From Xenophilus azovorans DSM 13620 (lineage in GTDB: Bacteria > Pseudomonadota > Gammaproteobacteria > Burkholderiales > Burkholderiaceae_C): a stretch of DNA of 64,000 bases. The notes under the pieces were generated by a model that had not been told where the DNA came from, searched no databases, and was given only the letters and a program-made list of their open reading frames with translations. The translations under genes were made by a program, and so were the position numbers. The stretch spans positions 124,001 to 188,000 of the forward strand of contig NZ_JQKD01000003.1 in the NCBI RefSeq assembly GCF_000745855.1. The letters are read 5' to 3'. Shown here piece by piece: positions 8,513 to 38,108 of this stretch (positions are counted from its first letter, which is position 1; every line of letters begins with the position of its first letter).

Positions 8513-9538
8513 TCATGAGCCGGCCATGCCGCCTTGCGCGGCCTTGTCGAATGCGGCATCGAAGGCGCCGGCCGCGGCAGGGAAATCCAGCCGGCGGCAG
8601 AAGGCGGCGCTCTCCGTGGCGCCGTGAACACGGTCCATGCGGCTGTCCTCCCATTCCACCGAGAGCGGCCCGGCGTAGCCGATGTCGTTGAGCGCGACGA
8701 TGATGGCCTCGAAGTCCACCATGCCGCGCCCGACGCTGCGGAAGTCCCAGAAGCGCCGCGCGTCGCCGAAGCTGGTGTGGCCGCCGAACACGCCCACCGT
8801 GCCGTCGCCCCTGCCCCACCACACGTCCTTCATGTGGGCGTTGTAGATGCGGTCGGCGAAGCGGCGGATGAAGCGCACGTAGTCCACGCCCTGGTAGGCG
8901 AGGTGGCTGGGGTCGAAGTTGAAGCCGAAGCGGCGGTGCCCGCCCACCGCCTCGATGGCGCGCTCGGCCGAGGCGATGTCGAAGGCGATCTCGGTCGGGT
9001 GCACCTCGAGCGCGAAGTTGACGTCGTGCTGCTCGAAGGTGTCGAGGATCGGCCCGAAGCGCCGGCCGAAGTCGGCGAAGCCCGCGTCCCAGTACGCCTG
9101 CGAGGTGGGCGGGAAGGCGTAGGTCGCGTGCCAGATCGACGAGCCGGTGAAGCCGGTGACGGTCTTCACGCCGAACTTCGCGGCGGCGCGTGCCGTGTCG
9201 GCCAGCTCGCTCGCCGCACGCCGGCGCACGCCTTCCGGCTCGCCGTCGCCCCACACGTGCGGCGGCAGGATGGCACGGTGGCGCTCGTCGATCAGGTCGC
9301 ACACGGCCTGCCCGACCAGGTGGTTGCCGATGGCCAGGCAGGTCAGGCCGTGCTCGCGCAGCAGCGCCCATTTGTCCTTGACGTAGGTCTCGGATGCGAG
9401 CGCTTGCTGCACGTCGAAGTGGTCGCCCCAGCAGGCCAGCTCCAGCCCGTCGTAGCCCATGCGCCGCGCCAGCGGCGCCAGCTCGGCCAGCGGCAGGTCG
9501 GCCCACTGGCCGGTGAAGAGGGTGACGGGACGTGGCAT
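8513..9538 (-). CDS. Sugar phosphate isomerase/epimerase (AP-endonuclease 2 TIM barrel)
   Basis: TIM-barrel isomerase/epimerase, 341 residues. Likely metal-ligand segments are spread as in the family: [29 protein letters not shown] and [10 protein letters not shown]. Start ATG 9538 ([10 protein letters not shown]) has AAAGGAAA upstream; the open frame continues upstream only through the repeat. It sits between the ABC-transporter binding protein and the Gfo/Idh/MocA oxidoreductase, so both enzymes probably act on the transported sugar. Xylose-isomerase-like TIM-barrel proteins paired with Gfo/Idh dehydrogenases are common in inositol and unusual-sugar pathways. The exact substrate cannot be read from the sequence. 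Confidence 0.85.
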
Positions 9539-9586
9539 TCGGGTTTCCTTTGCTCGGCACTCGCTCCACCTCGCATCCCCTCTGGC

Positions 9587-9706
9587 GGCCGCGGAGCAGG
9601 CCATGCGGGAACCGCCGCGGAACTGGCTCTGCCAGGCCGCAGGCGGTGCCCCCTTGAGGGGGTTGGCGGAGCGGAACGAAGTCCGCGAAGACTGGGGGTG
9701 GGTCGT
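9587..9706 (-). repeat. Structured 3'-end repeat, family A copy 1
   Basis: About 120 bp between the binding-protein stop (9707) and the isomerase gene. On the + strand: hairpin 1 at 9611-9647 with nested stems ACCGCC/GGCGGT, GCGG/CCGC and CTGGC/GCCAG around a TCT loop; hairpin 2 at 9649-9662 (CCCCC-TTGA-GGGGG); hairpin 3 at 9671-9686 (GCGGA-ACGAAG-TCCGC). Two further copies (28512-28632, 36162-36287) keep the stems while changing the bases in a paired way. In transcript sense the element starts a few bases after the stop codon. The rest of this gap (9539-9586) shows only the isomerase ribosome-binding site. Confidence 0.8.
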
Positions 9707-10669
9707 TCAGAACGGCGAGTTCGGGTGGTAGAAGTCCTTGGCGTTTTCCTTCGTGATCAGTACGGAAGGAATGATGGTGGTCTCGGGCAGCTTCTCGCCC
9801 TTCAGCCGCGCCTCGGCAGTGAGCTTGATGGCGTCGTAGATGAACTTGGGCGAATAGCTCACGTCGGCCTGGATGCGCGGGTCCTTGCCGTCGAGAATGG
9901 TCTTGACCATGCCCTTGGCGCCGGCGCCGCCGAAGACGATCTTGATGTCCTTGCGCTTGGCCTGCTCGATGGCCTTGAGCACGCCCACCGCCATGTCGTC
10001 GTCGGCCGCCCAGATGGCGTCGATCTCCTTGAAGCGCGTCAGGTAGTCCTGCGTGACCTTGAAGGCGTCGTCGCGGTTCCAGTTGGCGTACTTGGCGTCC
10101 AGCAGCTTGATGTCGGGGTGGTTCTTGAGCACGCTGTTGAAGGCGTCCATGCGCTCGTTGTCCAGCGTGGTGGCGATGCCGCGCAGTGCGACGACGTTGC
10201 CCTTGCCGTTCAGCTGCTTGGCGATGTACTCGGCCGGGATCTTGCCGAAGGCGGTGTTGTCGCCGGCCACGTAGGCGTCCTGCGCGCTGGTGTCGGTGAG
10301 GCCGCGGTCGACCACCGTGACGTACGCGCCCTTGGCCTTGACCTGCGCCACCGGCTTGGTCAGCGCCGCCGACTCGAAGGGGAAGACCACCAGCGCGTTG
10401 ATCTTGGTGACGGTGCTGAAGTCCTGCAGTTGGTTGGCCTGCTCCTGCGCGTTGGCGGCCGTCTTGATGGTGATCTTCAGGTCCTTGTGCTGCTTCTCCA
10501 GGTCCTTCTTGGCCTGGTTCGCCCAGTAGTTGATGCCGCCCATGAAGCTGTGCGTGGCGGCCGGGATGGACACGCCCAGGTTCACTTTCTCGGCGGCCAG
10601 CGCGGGCACGCTGGCGAGCGCGGCGGCAGCGACGGCCGTGAGGGCGATGCGACGGGTGATGGATGTCAT
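9707..10669 (-). CDS. Sugar ABC transporter, periplasmic substrate-binding protein
   Basis: Ribose/xylose-type periplasmic binding protein (Peripla_BP_4), 320 residues, delivering a sugar to the permease/ATPase encoded upstream. A signal peptide is evident ([18 protein letters not shown]...) with likely cleavage after ALA at residue 25. Conserved features include [33 protein letters not shown] and AADDDMAVG, typical of the pentose-binding cluster. Start ATG 10669 has GGAGACATCC upstream. It is the fourth gene of the ROK-ABC operon and the one directly followed by the family A repeat, which could help give the binding protein a higher mRNA level than downstream enzymes (inference). Confidence 0.92.
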
Positions 10670-26198: not shown

Positions 26199-26348
26199 GG
26201 CGGGGCATGGTACCCAACAGGAGGCCGTCGCGTGGTTCGCGGGCCCGAAGCGCCCACGGCAGGAATCACCACCCGCTGACGCCTCGCCGGAGCACCCTGC
26301 GGGCTGGCGTACGATGTGCCGGACCTGCCGCAGCCCCCTCCCCCAGCG

Positions 26349-28511
26349 ATGCACCTGCCAGAGGCCGAAGTCCATGCCCTGATGCGCGCCGAGCACGGCG
26401 ATCCGTTCGCGGTGCTGGGCCCGCACGAGACACCCGAGGGGCTGGTCGTGCGCGTGCTGATGCCGGGCGCGCGCCAGGTGGGCGTGGTGCATGCCGCCTC
26501 GGGCGACCCGCTGGCGGTGCTGCAGCGCCAGGGCGATTCCGACCTGTTCTCTGCCCTGGTGCCGGCCGCGCCGGCGCGCATGGGCTACCGCCTGCACGTG
26601 CAGTGGGAGGACCACGCCGCGCTGCTGGACGACCCCTACCGCTTCCCGCCCGTGCTGGGCGAGCTGGACGCCTGGCTGCTGGCCGAGGGCACCCACCTGC
26701 GCCCCTGGGAGCGGCTGGGTGCGCACCTGTGCGAGCTGGGCGGCGCGCGGGGCGTGGCCTTCGCCGTCTGGGCGCCCAACGCGCGCCGGGTCTCGGTGGT
26801 CGGCCCCTTCAACCAGTGGGACGGCCGCCGCCACATGATGCGGCTGCGCCGCGAGTGCGGCGTGTGGGAGATGTTCGTGCCCCACATGGCGGCCGGCGAC
26901 GCCTACCAGTTCGAGATCCTCGGCGCCGACGGCCACCTGCTGCACAAGGCCGACCCCTACGCCTTCGGCTCGCGCCTGCGGCCGGACACGGCCAGCGTGG
27001 TGCGACAACTGCCACCGCCCGCCACGCTGCCGCCGGCGCGCGCGGCAGCCAACCGGCGCGATGCACCGATCAGCATCTACGAAGTGCACCTGGGCTCGTG
27101 GCGGCGCAAGAACGGCCACGAGTGGCTGAGCTACCGCGACCTGGCCGAGACGCTGGTGCCCTACGCGCGCGACATGGGCTTCACCCACCTGGAGCTGATG
27201 CCGGTGAGCGAGCATCCCTTCGACGGCTCCTGGGGCTACCAGCCGGTGGGGCTGTACACGCCGACGGCCCGCTTCGGCGCGCCGGAGGACTTCCGCCACT
27301 TCGTGCAGGCGGCGCACGAGGCCGGCCTGGGCGTGATCCTCGACTGGGTGCCGGCGCACTTCCCGACCGATCCGCACGGGCTGGCCCGCTTCGACGGCAC
27401 GCCGCTGTACGAGTACGCCGACCCGCGCGAGGGCTTCCACAACGACTGGAACACGCTGATCTTCAACTGGCGCCGCACCGAGGTGCGCAACTACCTGGTG
27501 GGCAACGCCCTGTTCTGGCTGGAGCGCTACGGCGTGGACGGCCTGCGCGTGGACGCGGTGGCCTCCATGCTGTACCGCGACTACAGCCGCCCGCCCGGCG
27601 AGTGGGTGGCCAACGAGCACGGCGGCCGCGAGAACCTGGAGGCGATCGACTTCCTGCGCCGCACCAACCGCGTGGTGGGCACCGAGCGGCCCGGCGCCAC
27701 CACCATCGCCGAGGAGTCGACCAGCTTCCCAGCCGTCACCCGCCCGCCCGAGGACGGCGGCCTGGGCTTCCACTTCAAGTGGAACATGGGCTGGATGAAC
27801 GACACGCTGGCCTATGCGCGCACCGACCCGCTGTACCGCCGGCACGAGCACCGCAAGATCACCTTCGGCCTGATGTACGCGCACAGCGAGAACTTCGTGC
27901 TGCCGCTCTCGCACGACGAGGTGGTGCACGGCAAGGGCTCGCTGATCGGCAAGATGCCGGGCGACGACTGGCAGAAGTTCGCCGGGCTGCGCAACCTGTA
28001 CGGCTACCTGTGGGCCTACTCGGGCAAGAAGCTGCTCTTCATGGGTGGCGAGTTCGCCCAGCGCGCCGAGTGGAACCACGACCACGGCCTGGACTGGCAC
28101 CTGCTGGAGTACCCGACGCACCAGGGCGTGCAGCGGCTGGTGCGCGACCTGAACAACGTGTTGCGCCACTTCCCGGCGCTGCACGAGCTGGACTGCGAGC
28201 CGCAGGGCTTCGAGTGGATCGTGCACGACGACGAGCAGCAGTCCGTGTTCGCCTTCGTGCGCCGCGCGAAGGACGGCACCTGCGTGGTCGCGGTGTGCAA
28301 CTTCACGCCGGAGGTGCGGCGCGGCTACCGCCTCGGGGTGCCGGCGCCGGGCGCCTGGCGCGAGGTCATCAACACCGACGGCGAGGTCTACGGCGGCAGC
28401 GGCGTGGGCAACGGCGTCGTTCACACCGAATCGCTGCCCTGGCACGGGCGGCCGCAGTCCATCGACATCACGGTGCCGCCGCTGGCGAGCGTGTACTTCG
28501 TGCTGACATGA
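26349..28511 (+). CDS. glgB: 1,4-alpha-glucan branching enzyme
   Basis: Makes alpha-1,6 branches in glycogen; 720 residues, close to the usual ~730. Layout: N-terminal beta-sandwich ([14 protein letters not shown]), CBM48 ([20 protein letters not shown]), GH13 barrel. Catalytic Asp402 is in [11 protein letters not shown], Glu in TIAEEST and the third acid in LSHDEVVHG. Start: ATG 26349 ([12 protein letters not shown]) preferred to GTG 26316, whose extra residues are PDLPQPPPP. First gene of the glgBXCAP operon. Confidence 0.96.
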
Positions 28512-28632
28512 ATCACCCCCAGTCTTCGCGGACTTCGTTCCGCTCCGCCAACCCCCTCAAGGGGGCACATCCAGCGGCCCGGCAGAGCCGGTTCCGCGGA
28601 TGTTCCCGCATGGCCTGCTCCGCGGCCTTCTG
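28512..28632 (+). repeat. Structured 3'-end repeat, family A copy 2
   Basis: Begins immediately after the glgB stop. Same three hairpins as copy 1 in opposite genomic orientation but the same orientation relative to the gene. The main hairpin spans 28567-28603 (ACATCC/GGATGT outer stem, CCGGC/GCCGG inner stem around AGA). Compared with copy 1, the outer stem has two and the inner stem one compensatory pair change. It fills most of the 216 bp glgB-glgX gap; 28633-28727 shows nothing else recognisable. Confidence 0.8.
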
Positions 28633-28727
28633 AGCGGCGAGCCGAATGGTGTTGACGTGAAGCGCAGCGGCACGGTTTCTGCTGCCCGGCCTGCGTGCGT
28701 GCACCACCACTGCCTTCATCGCCCTTC

Positions 28728-30809
<2,082 letters not shown>

Positions 30810-33685: not shown

Positions 33686-36142
<2,457 letters not shown>

Positions 36143-36161: not shown

Positions 36162-36287
36162 GAAGGCCGCGAAGCAGGCCATGCTGGAACATCCGCGGGA
36201 CCGGCTCTGCCAGACCGCAGGATGTGCCCCCTGGAGGGGGTTGCCGGAGCGGAACGAAGTCCGCACACGCACAGGCTGGGGGGTGGG
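36162..36287 (-). repeat. Structured 3'-end repeat, family A copy 3
   Basis: Fills the gap between the convergent glgP and acyl-CoA synthetase genes. In transcript sense it starts directly after the synthetase TAG (36290-36288). Main hairpin 36189-36225 (ACATCC/GGATGT, GCGG/CCGC, CCGGC/GCCAG with one C-A mismatch), then CCCCC-TGGA-GGGGG at 36227-36240 and GCGGA-ACGAAG-TCCGC. The tail near the stop is diverged from copies 1 and 2. Also downstream of glgP in the other direction, so it could serve both. Confidence 0.78.
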
Positions 36288-37964
36288 CTATTTGTCCCGC
36301 AGTTCGCGCCGCAGGATCTTGCCCACCGGCGTCTTGGGCATCTCGGTGCGGAACTCGATGATCTTGGGCCGCTTGTAGCCGGTGAGGTTGGCGTTGCAGA
36401 AGTCGCGCACCTGCTGCTCGGTGAGCGACTCGTGCTTCTTCACGATCACCAGCTTGACGGCCTCGCCGGTCTTCTCGTCCGGCACGCCGACCACCGCGCA
36501 CTCGAGCACGCCGTCCAGCGCCGCCACCACGTCCTCGATCTCGTTGGGGTACACGTTGAAGCCGCTGACCAGCACCATGTCCTTCTTGCGGTCGACGATC
36601 TTGAAGTAGCCGCGTTCGTCCACCGTGCCGATGTCGCCGGTCTTGAAGTAGCCGTCGGCGGTCATGACCTTGGCCGTCTCGTCGGGCCGCTGCCAGTAGC
36701 CGGCCATCACCTGCGGGCCCTTGATCGCGATCTCGCCGCGCTCGCCCGGCGGCACCTCGTGGCCGTCGTCGTCGAGCAGCTTCATCCAGGTGCTGGGCAG
36801 GGGCACGCCGATGGTGCCGGTGTACTCCTTGCTGGTGGTCGGGTTGCAGCTCGCCGAGGGGCTGGTCTCCGACAGGCCGTAGCCCTCGCAGATCGGGCAG
36901 CCGGTCCTCTCCAGCCACAGCTTGGCGACCGCGCCCTGCACCGCCATGCCGCCGCCCACCGAGACCTTGAGGTGGCTCCAGTCCACCGTCTTGAAGTCGG
37001 GATGGTTGGCCAGGCCGTTGAACAGGGTGTTGACGGCCGGGAAGCTGTGGATGGTGTGCTTGGACAGCTCCTTGAGCGTGGCCGCCAGGTCGCGCGGGTT
37101 GGGGATGAGCACCAGCTTGCCGCCGGTGCGCATGCTCAGCATCATGCCCACGGTGAAGGCGAAGATGTGATAGAGCGGCAGCGCACACACGCTGGTAGGC
37201 TGCTGGTCCTTCGGCACGCGCTCCATCACCGGCTGGTTCCACGCCTCCGACTGCAGCACGTTGGCGATGACGTTGCGGTGCAGCAGCACGGCACCCTTGC
37301 TCACGCCGGTGGTGCCGCCGGTGTACTGCAGCACGGCGACGTCGTCCGGGCCGATCTCGGGCGCCTGCAGCGTGCGGCTGCCGCCCTGCGCGATCGCGTC
37401 GTTGAAGCGGATGACGCCCGGCAGCTGGAAGGCCGGCACCATCTTCTTCACGTTGCGCAGCACGTAGTTGACCAGCGCGCCCTTGAGGAAGCCGAGCCGG
37501 TCGCCCATGGCCGCCAGCACGATGTGCTTGACCTGCGTGTGCGGCAGCGCCTGCTGCAGCGTCGCGGCGAAGTTCTCCATGATGACGATCGCCTTGGCGC
37601 CCGCGTCCTTGAGCTGGTGCTCCAGCTCGCGCGCGGTGTACAGCGGGTTCACGTTCACCAGGATCAGCCCCGCGCGCAGGATGCCGGCGACGGCGATCGG
37701 GTACTGCGGGCAGTTGGGCATCATCACCGCCACGCGGTCGCCCTTGGCCAGTCCCAGCCCCTGCTGCAGGTAGGCGGCGAAGGCGCGGCTGGCCTGGTCC
37801 ACCTCGGCATAGCTGACGTCCTTGCCCATGAAGCTGTAGGCCGTGCGATCCGCGAAACGGCCGAAGCTCTCCTCCATCAGCGCCACCAGGGAGCGGTACT
37901 GGGTCGGGTCGATGTCGGCGGGCACGCCGGCGGGGTAGGCGGAAAGCCAGGGGCGGTCGGTCAT
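36288..37964 (-). CDS. fadD: Long-chain fatty acid-CoA ligase (AMP-binding)
   Basis: Activates fatty acids to acyl-CoA through an acyl-AMP; 558 residues. P-loop-like motif YTGGTTGVSKGA, EGYGLSETSP, and GYFKTGDIGTVDERGYFKIV followed by DRKKDMVLVSGFNVYPNEIE; C-terminal lysine in KTPVGKILRRELRDK. Start ATG 37964 with GGAGA upstream. Length and motifs fit FadD-type long-chain ligases. Not obviously in an operon with pntAB (145 bp gap, no clear function seen in 37965-38108). Confidence 0.9.
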   Translation of the reverse strand: MTDRPWLSAYPAGVPADIDPTQYRSLVALMEESFGRFADRTAYSFMGKDVSYAEVDQASRAFAAYLQQGLGLAKGDRVAVMMPNCPQYPIAVAGILRAGLILVNVNPLYTARELEHQLKDAGAKAIVIMENFAATLQQALPHTQVKHIVLAAMGDRLGFLKGALVNYVLRNVKKMVPAFQLPGVIRFNDAIAQGGSRTLQAPEIGPDDVAVLQYTGGTTGVSKGAVLLHRNVIANVLQSEAWNQPVMERVPKDQQPTSVCALPLYHIFAFTVGMMLSMRTGGKLVLIPNPRDLAATLKELSKHTIHSFPAVNTLFNGLANHPDFKTVDWSHLKVSVGGGMAVQGAVAKLWLERTGCPICEGYGLSETSPSASCNPTTSKEYTGTIGVPLPSTWMKLLDDDGHEVPPGERGEIAIKGPQVMAGYWQRPDETAKVMTADGYFKTGDIGTVDERGYFKIVDRKKDMVLVSGFNVYPNEIEDVVAALDGVLECAVVGVPDEKTGEAVKLVIVKKHESLTEQQVRDFCNANLTGYKRPKIIEFRTEMPKTPVGKILRRELRDK

Positions 37965-38108
37965 AGGTCTCCTCGCGTTCTCGAATTCAACAAGACAAAC
38001 AAGCGAAGCGCCCGCCGTGCGGTCGCTGCCAGCTATCGAAACAGTAGCGATCCCTGCCGGATGCTACCCGATGGCCCCGCAGGCGTCGAAGATCGGCATG
38101 ACAGCCGA

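Follow-up and report, generated by a model that had tools for sequence, protein, structure and literature searches.

The window, a 64,000-nt stretch of the Xenophilus azovorans DSM 13620 genome, contains three copies of a hairpin-forming sequence whose stems differ between copies by changes on both sides of a pair. These copies raise three questions: whether their fold is maintained, whether it works as RNA or as DNA, and why they lie where they do. The original prediction, made from the letters of the window alone, described them as a conserved RNA or cruciform structure.

Both a reading of the sequence and a covariance model located the three copies at the predicted places (Table 1). They are mutually 89–92% identical, and a 19-nt segment, GGAGCGGAACGAAGTCCGC, has three matches in the window, all of them exact, against 0.05 expected at three or fewer mismatches. 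The paired changes described in the first predicted hairpin are present in the outer stem (ACCGCC/GGCGGT versus ACATCC/GGATGT) as well as in the inner stem (CTGGC/GCCAG versus CCGGC/GCCGG), and so are the C5/G5 hairpin and the GCGGA..TCCGC hairpin. The predicted strand is the reverse of the gene-sense strand; accordingly, the C-A mismatch noted in copy 3 exists on the predicted strand and is a U-G wobble on the gene-sense strand. A mechanically called open reading frame at 8513-9604 has its ATG (9604-9602) inside copy 1, and relatives place the real start of that gene near 9538.

Table 1. Copies of the element in the window, their parts and their neighbours (HP, hairpin)
Feature	Position	Strand	Description
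Copy 1	9584..9700	-	117 nt; covariance-model match G000:C2:133584-133700:-
Copy 1, junction			Gene 9707-10669 (-), stop TGA 9709-9707, then 6 nt, then copy 1
Copy 1, HP1 GCGGACTTCGTTCCGC	9671..9686	-	Read from the sequence; pairs co-vary across copies; exact in all three window copies
Copy 1, HP2 CCCCC TCAA GGGGG	9649..9662	-	Read from the sequence; 98.8% of helix cells paired in alignment A3
Copy 1, HP3	9611..9647	-	6 bp, bulge, 4 bp, asymmetric internal loop, 5 bp, 3-nt loop
Copy 1, HP4 GGCCTGCTCCGCGGCC	9587..9602	-	Common in the genus; also in a Comamonas plasmid copy
Gene upstream of copy 1	9707..10669	-	Peripla_BP_4; same end in relatives with and without the element
Copy 2	28514..28630	+	Between glgB-like gene 26316-28511 (stop TGA, then 2 nt) and glgX-like open frame 28695-30809
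Copy 3	36162..36287	-	Model match 36162-36278; follows stop TAG of AMP-binding enzyme gene 36288-37964 (-)
Copy 3, gap			Convergent; opposite partner glycogen phosphorylase gene 33686-36142 (+)

The claim that all copies form the same three hairpins holds for the co-varying pairs and only in part for the lowest-energy folds. In copy 1 the lowest-energy fold contains the three hairpins on the sense strand and lacks them on the predicted strand, in copy 2 they form on both strands, and in the sense-strand fold of copy 3 HP2 and HP3 form while HP1 folds otherwise. In addition, the consensus fold of this genus has a fourth hairpin (GGCC..GGCC). The single-sequence folding energies are ordinary (z -0.6 to -1.9 for the window copies), and the evidence for the fold is therefore the covariation.

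This covariation is extensive. In alignment A3, which has 89 distinct rows, 98.8% of the 2758 helix cells are paired and 21 of the 32 pairs have changed on both sides; the covariation score is 0.242, compared with 0.081 for shuffles (none of 500 as high) and at most 0.060 for slid partners. Since A3 was fitted to the model, we added a tree-aware null of 60 simulated alignments, in which the changes of each column were redistributed over a FastTree tree. The significant pairs under this null were all structure pairs, three of three in this genome (85 rows) and eight of eight across genera (81 rows); seven of the latter eight lie at positions left free by the collection pattern, while the eighth (118/139) is partly constrained by it. 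Most of the covariation resides in HP3. Among 271 copies of this hairpin, 199 are fully Watson-Crick and represent 72 distinct fully paired stems, in a set where the search pattern fixed 4 of the 15 pairs, a floor of 12 paired positions was applied and some loci came from a pattern fixing more. The bulge and the asymmetric internal loop of HP3 persist across copies. Thus, the predicted upkeep of the fold is borne out, also in the statistical covariation check, and the explanation that the original prediction had held against itself, two repeat subfamilies copied whole, is excluded by the 72 distinct stems.

Selection on the fold is not the only process that could change both sides of a stem. 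The paired changes might mostly arise by template switching (quasipalindrome correction) or by exchange of whole hairpins. Such a mutational origin would fit the observation that two-sided changes nearly always fall on the same branch (at the most variable pair, 16 of 17 changes in the genome and 16 of 18 across genera). It would also fit the rarity of one-sided intermediates: among copies with 12 or more of the 15 pairs, they account for 50 of 4065 cells. Some HP2 loops also occur in both orientations (TGCAA 13, TTGCA 9). HP1 differs wholesale between copies, in six rough classes of 45, 11, 4, 7, 13 and 8 of the 88 copies, as hairpin exchange would have it, and exchange between copies could inflate the count of independent covariation events. 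However, template switching should also erase the bulge, the asymmetric internal loop and the loop orientation of HP3, all of which persist, and it leaves the position and orientation of the element unexplained. We consider it improbable as the main source of the paired changes. The two-sided change is so strict that this family could allow selection and template-switch mutation to be separated.

Other palindromes occur inside some copies. L059 and L072 have in common two additional long hairpins, located between HP2 and HP3, with stems differing by paired changes. Five copies (L254:6838-6978, L254:10537-10678, L026:1454-1594, L257:897-1038 and L060:1487-1627) enclose a further palindromic repeat, CCTTGGCCTGCCCTGAGCCTGTCGAAGGG or its reverse, which lies in the HP1 or HP3 loop where the sequences were read, as if a mobile palindrome had inserted into the hairpin loops of another. 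The possibility that the element encodes a small protein was considered and rejected; an open reading frame spans some copies, and by inspection 1-nt changes in HP2-loop length break it.

The original prediction counted three copies, whereas the genome has about 90. With copy 1 as a BLAST query, at least 41 matches were obtained (40 of 172 candidates scored). A covariance model (R1) of 117 positions, built from 47 copies, was run on the 6.5-Mb genome; with 150 of 10719 first-look candidates scored, it found at least 91 matches with an E-value of no more than 0.01. Searching 86 fetched loci yielded 93 matches and 89 distinct sequences, of which 88 were used after half of one split copy was dropped. 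Three of the four merged pairs were one place fetched twice. The fourth, L304:1002-1121 and L305:982-1101, is an identical 120-nt copy at two genomic places with different upstream flanks; it is a recent copying event, and the best sign of one. The element in this genus is about 117 nt long, a chain of hairpins with two C5 runs and CACCCCC at its gene-sense start. No tandem arrays were found among the copies of this genome. Near-tandem copies occur elsewhere, three within 454 nt in G260:C15:34933-35386 and two within 255 nt in G227:C1:233474-233728.

The family is found in genera of Comamonadaceae and Sphaerotilaceae. In a sample of 40 genomes, 23 had matches: this one, all 14 others of the genus and 8 of 9 from other genera of its family, while none of the 16 genomes from other families had any. 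Genomes of the genus carry between 20 and at least 91 copies each. Among 399 genomes of the order, R1 matched 13, namely this one, 8 of 11 others of its family, two of family f4, one of f3 and one of f30. A broader model, R2, also matched 13 (this one, the same 8 of 11, three of f4 and one of f3), with nine candidates per genome scored and stricter filters. Named records, comprising at least 80 loci in 114 stretches, include Variovorax, Ramlibacter, Polaromonas, Pseudacidovorax, Xenophilus, Rubrivivax, Leptothrix, Rhizobacter, Roseateles and others. The family is also present in Methylibium; among the matches listed, one copy is in a metagenome bin labelled Brevundimonas, and the best-scoring named loci are those of Xenophilus strains and an unclassified Comamonadaceae. 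Plasmids and phages were considered as vehicles and rejected: each of two queries matched seven plasmid records, all from Comamonadaceae or Sphaerotilaceae, and neither matched a phage record.

The most striking property of the copies, absent from the original prediction, is their sense orientation and their placement at stop codons. Upstream coding frames were called from third-position GC. Of the 88 copies examined, 85 had such a frame (L015, L025 and L310 gave none in sense orientation), and in 82 of these 85 the stop codon ends no more than 9 nt ahead of the first base of the element and no more than 2 nt past it. Random intergenic placement would give 0.8% per copy, as estimated from 37 window gene calls, one of them cut at the edge. 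The stop-to-element distance peaks at 7 nt (17 copies) and at 3 to 1 nt (41 copies), and two of the three outliers, L266 and L312, are longer variants with their own CACCCCC near the stop. In other genera, 60 of the 66 copies with a called frame have the stop between 20 nt before and 3 nt after the element start. This set started from 90 rows, which became 84 after removal of five short rows and one duplicate; 12 had no recognisable HP2 and six no called frame. The placement holds whichever stop codon is used (TGA 38, TAG 11 and TAA 11 in the 60 copies). Annotated plasmid records of named strains agree: one copy follows arsC, another follows ahpF, and a third separates two TRAP permease genes.

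The next gene is co-directional for 63 of the 88 copies, convergent for 17 and unclear for 8, close to the window background of 28 to 8; thus, only the end of the upstream gene matters. A run of four or more T near the 3′ end occurs in only 3 of the 88 copies, a rarity that makes ordinary intrinsic termination unlikely. One way to account for the placement would be a mobile element that targets stop codons, in which an RNA- or ssDNA-based copying machinery is guided to any stop in sense orientation, for example via mRNA cut or stalled at termination. We regard this as a long shot. If true, insertion itself would sense the end of translation, rather than being random and then filtered by selection.

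Comparison with relatives revealed that occupancy of these sites varies between species. All 14 other genomes of the genus have long matching stretches around the sites, with the matches breaking at the element. At the copy 1 site, 13 relatives were fetched. In four (G006, G007, G008 and G010) the stop is followed by 13 nt and the next ATG. G011 and apparently G001, judged by the right-hand part, carry another subtype of the element; G002, G009, G012 and G013 have an unrelated hairpin repeat, G005 another hairpin, and G003 and G004 a different following gene. The upstream protein ends at the same residue with the element, in this genome, or without it, in the four tight-gap relatives. Copy 2 is absent from all seven relatives fetched, two of which have the unrelated hairpin repeat instead. 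Among the five sites s1–s5, s2–s4 are filled in some species and empty in others; at s4 the filled allele of G009 and G014 has TAG, whereas the empty alleles read have TGA. Because these gene ends do without the element in sister species, it is not indispensable to any one gene. The pattern suggests repeated gain or replacement at these sites, perhaps together with losses.

The very close pair G009 and G014 has all listed copies in common by score, save one extra in G014, and the turnover between them is therefore slow. No clean empty site for defining the exact element ends was found among the matches listed for this pair. Two G014 copies, G014:C40:17660-17766 and G014:C39:336170-336276, have equal scores where G009 has one, a possible recent duplication. 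Other repeats occupy the same kind of place. In other species of the genus, an unrelated hairpin repeat (..CGCCCG..CGGGCG..AGCTATCGA..GTAGC..) immediately follows the same stop codons (L362, L369, L372, L373, L375 and L379), and a similar stretch lies around position 38032 of the window. At sites orthologous to L254:485 and L254:5459, the post-stop gaps of some relatives (loci L275, L281, L287 and L288) are filled by a third repeat, CGCAGAGG..CGCAAAG.., together with an inverted copy of it.

The original prediction is thus supported in part: the fold is kept up, and the wobble pairs give no significant support to its being kept as RNA rather than as DNA. G-U is usually favoured over A-C in RNA helices. 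The pattern-based count of HP3 pair cells in 271 copies gave 3979 Watson-Crick, 29 G-U, 21 A-C and 36 other, so that the preference for G-U over A-C on the gene-sense strand, 29:21, is not significant (p 0.32). Model-fitted alignments gave ratios of 81:12 (A3) and 53:13 (A2); in A3, 52 of the 81 G-U cells come from one HP1 column pair with G-U as its commonest state, and for HP3 alone the ratios are 11:4 (A3) and 11:7 (A2). We took the pattern-based count as the fairer one. On the other hand, the gene-sense orientation and the place right behind the stop codon favour a role in the mRNA.

An origin at the DNA level has to be weighed here. A recombinase or transposase could recognise the hairpins in folded single-stranded DNA, in the manner of TnpA-REP, with the pairing kept for mobility and selection sparing only the insertions behind stops. 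The stems, almost purely Watson-Crick and without a significant G-U preference, fit this reading. The HP3 loop is strand-specific: of the 83 copies readable in this genome, 81 have A as the third loop base, which the collection pattern left free. For HP1, 120 of 270 copies gave a triloop hairpin, and 40 of the 55 distinct ones read C(TNC)G; the opposite strand then reads C(GNA)G, which belongs to a class of loops that is extra stable in DNA. The presence and absence of copies between species and the identical L304/L305 copy also accord with mobility, and the reading of hairpins by TnpA-REP is itself described as strand-specific (PMC8266576, in the part consulted). However, no partner was found. 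Inspection of 56 rows and of filled and empty sites showed neither terminal inverted repeats nor target duplications, although intergenic divergence limits the test for the latter, and mobility at the DNA level alone leaves the sense orientation and the 10-nt window unexplained. We therefore consider this reading unlikely, yet worth more attention than a purely mutational origin of the pairing.

The obvious candidate for a mobiliser, a RAYT, was rejected. One Y1_Tnp gene is present in 14 of the 15 genus genomes, and no model match at E 1 or better was found within about 1.5 kb on either side of the 14 loci. The protein of this genome (L081, G000:C20:73415-73684) stands apart: alone among the 14, it has HFR for HFH and CMAA for CMAY, with the tyrosine lost, which suggests a product that is catalytically dead but retained. 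One hint in favour of a RAYT comes from G003: it alone lacks a Y1_Tnp gene, and its copies number only 20 and are weak. In Methylibium, one copy lies under a gene annotated as 'transposase', but it runs on the other strand and gave no lead.

Taken together, we give about an even chance to a REP-like reading: a dispersed, non-autonomous element, hosted by Comamonadaceae and Sphaerotilaceae, that takes up the beginning of the 3′ UTR. The element would be transcribed within the mRNA of the upstream gene, and its RNA would fold directly beside the terminating ribosome. Folded in this way, it may shield the 3′ end of the cistron from 3′-5′ exonucleases and may uncouple the upstream gene from the next one. 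By analogy with E. coli REPs within 15 nt of a stop, it might also tune termination.

The original prediction named no described family, and Rfam gave no match at gathering score for the window and nine further loci (best sub-threshold scores, 21 and 16.7 bits). A non-exhaustive literature search did not find CCCCCTCAAGGGGGC or its complement and returned a single near candidate, the BRE repeat named in Bordetella by Hot et al. 2011. BRE is given as about 75–91 bp long with an average GC of 69%, in Bordetella, Polaromonas, Delftia and other Comamonadaceae (PMC3110155, available portions). The two are compared here by their descriptions. Both are betaproteobacterial, mostly intergenic, similar in GC and partly hosted by Comamonadaceae, and the size of about 90 bp, the GC of 69% and these hosts would suit identity. 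So would the tabulated Bordetella loci, none of 13 lying between divergent genes, and the tandem arrays of BRE, given the near-tandem copies in G260 and G227 (PMC3110155, available portions). Against this, BRE differs in its VNTR-like tandem arrays in Bordetella, its 75–91 bp and its host list: the host table lacks Variovorax, Leptothrix and Methylibium, in which the present family occurs, and the available text is silent on whether these were searched (PMC3110155). Among the 399 order genomes, moreover, R1 and R2 matches are confined to f1, f4 and single genomes of f3 and f30, in a sample from which Bordetella is possibly missing. It is thus improbable that the element is BRE.

Other described repeats share fewer traits. 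The Bor repeats of Bordetella (Petrillo et al. 2006, PMC1590033) are likewise palindromic and close to coding regions, but they are 26–30 bp long, belong to Bordetella, and form a short single stem-loop resembling the E. coli REP; the same account, as far as available, states that stable stem-loops in general prefer the first 50 bp after a stop codon. ERIC, NEMIS/Correia and RUP, as described in the accessible part of PMC2229807, are alike in being about 100–200 bp, non-coding and transcribed into stem-loops with suggested effects on mRNA stability. Most of these, however, have terminal inverted repeats and several have target duplications, unlike the copies inspected here.

The closest comparison is with REP. 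High copy number, extragenic location and hairpin formation are shared, as seen in the at least 91 matches and the covariation-backed fold. A REP unit, in contrast, is a single hairpin of 20–40 nt, whereas the present element is about 117 nt long with four hairpins in the genus consensus; its units are oriented, unlike REP, and the GTAG or CGTC tag beside the REP hairpin is absent from the A1 consensus, although three copies in other genera (L165, L167 and L214) have GTAG before HP1. Proximity to stop codons is shared, but nearly all copies here touch a stop, as compared to only a fraction of REPs. The primary study of ribosome stalling at REPs near stops is reportedly that of Liang, Rudd and Deutscher in 2015. 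In E. coli, RepRanger places 446 of 4072 REPs within 15 nt of a stop codon, and REPs at no more than 15 nt stall ribosomes, as cited there (PMC12306157, available sections); GTAG REPs often provide the TAG stop codon of flanking genes (PMC3733652, available sections). Because the size, the tag and a flanked RAYT are all lacking, the element is REP-like in its possible working and not a REP. It appears to be a new cousin of the E. coli REP repeats, and an unusually strict one, and the same gene with or without it in sister species supplies many natural replicates for the study of REP-like repeats at stop codons.
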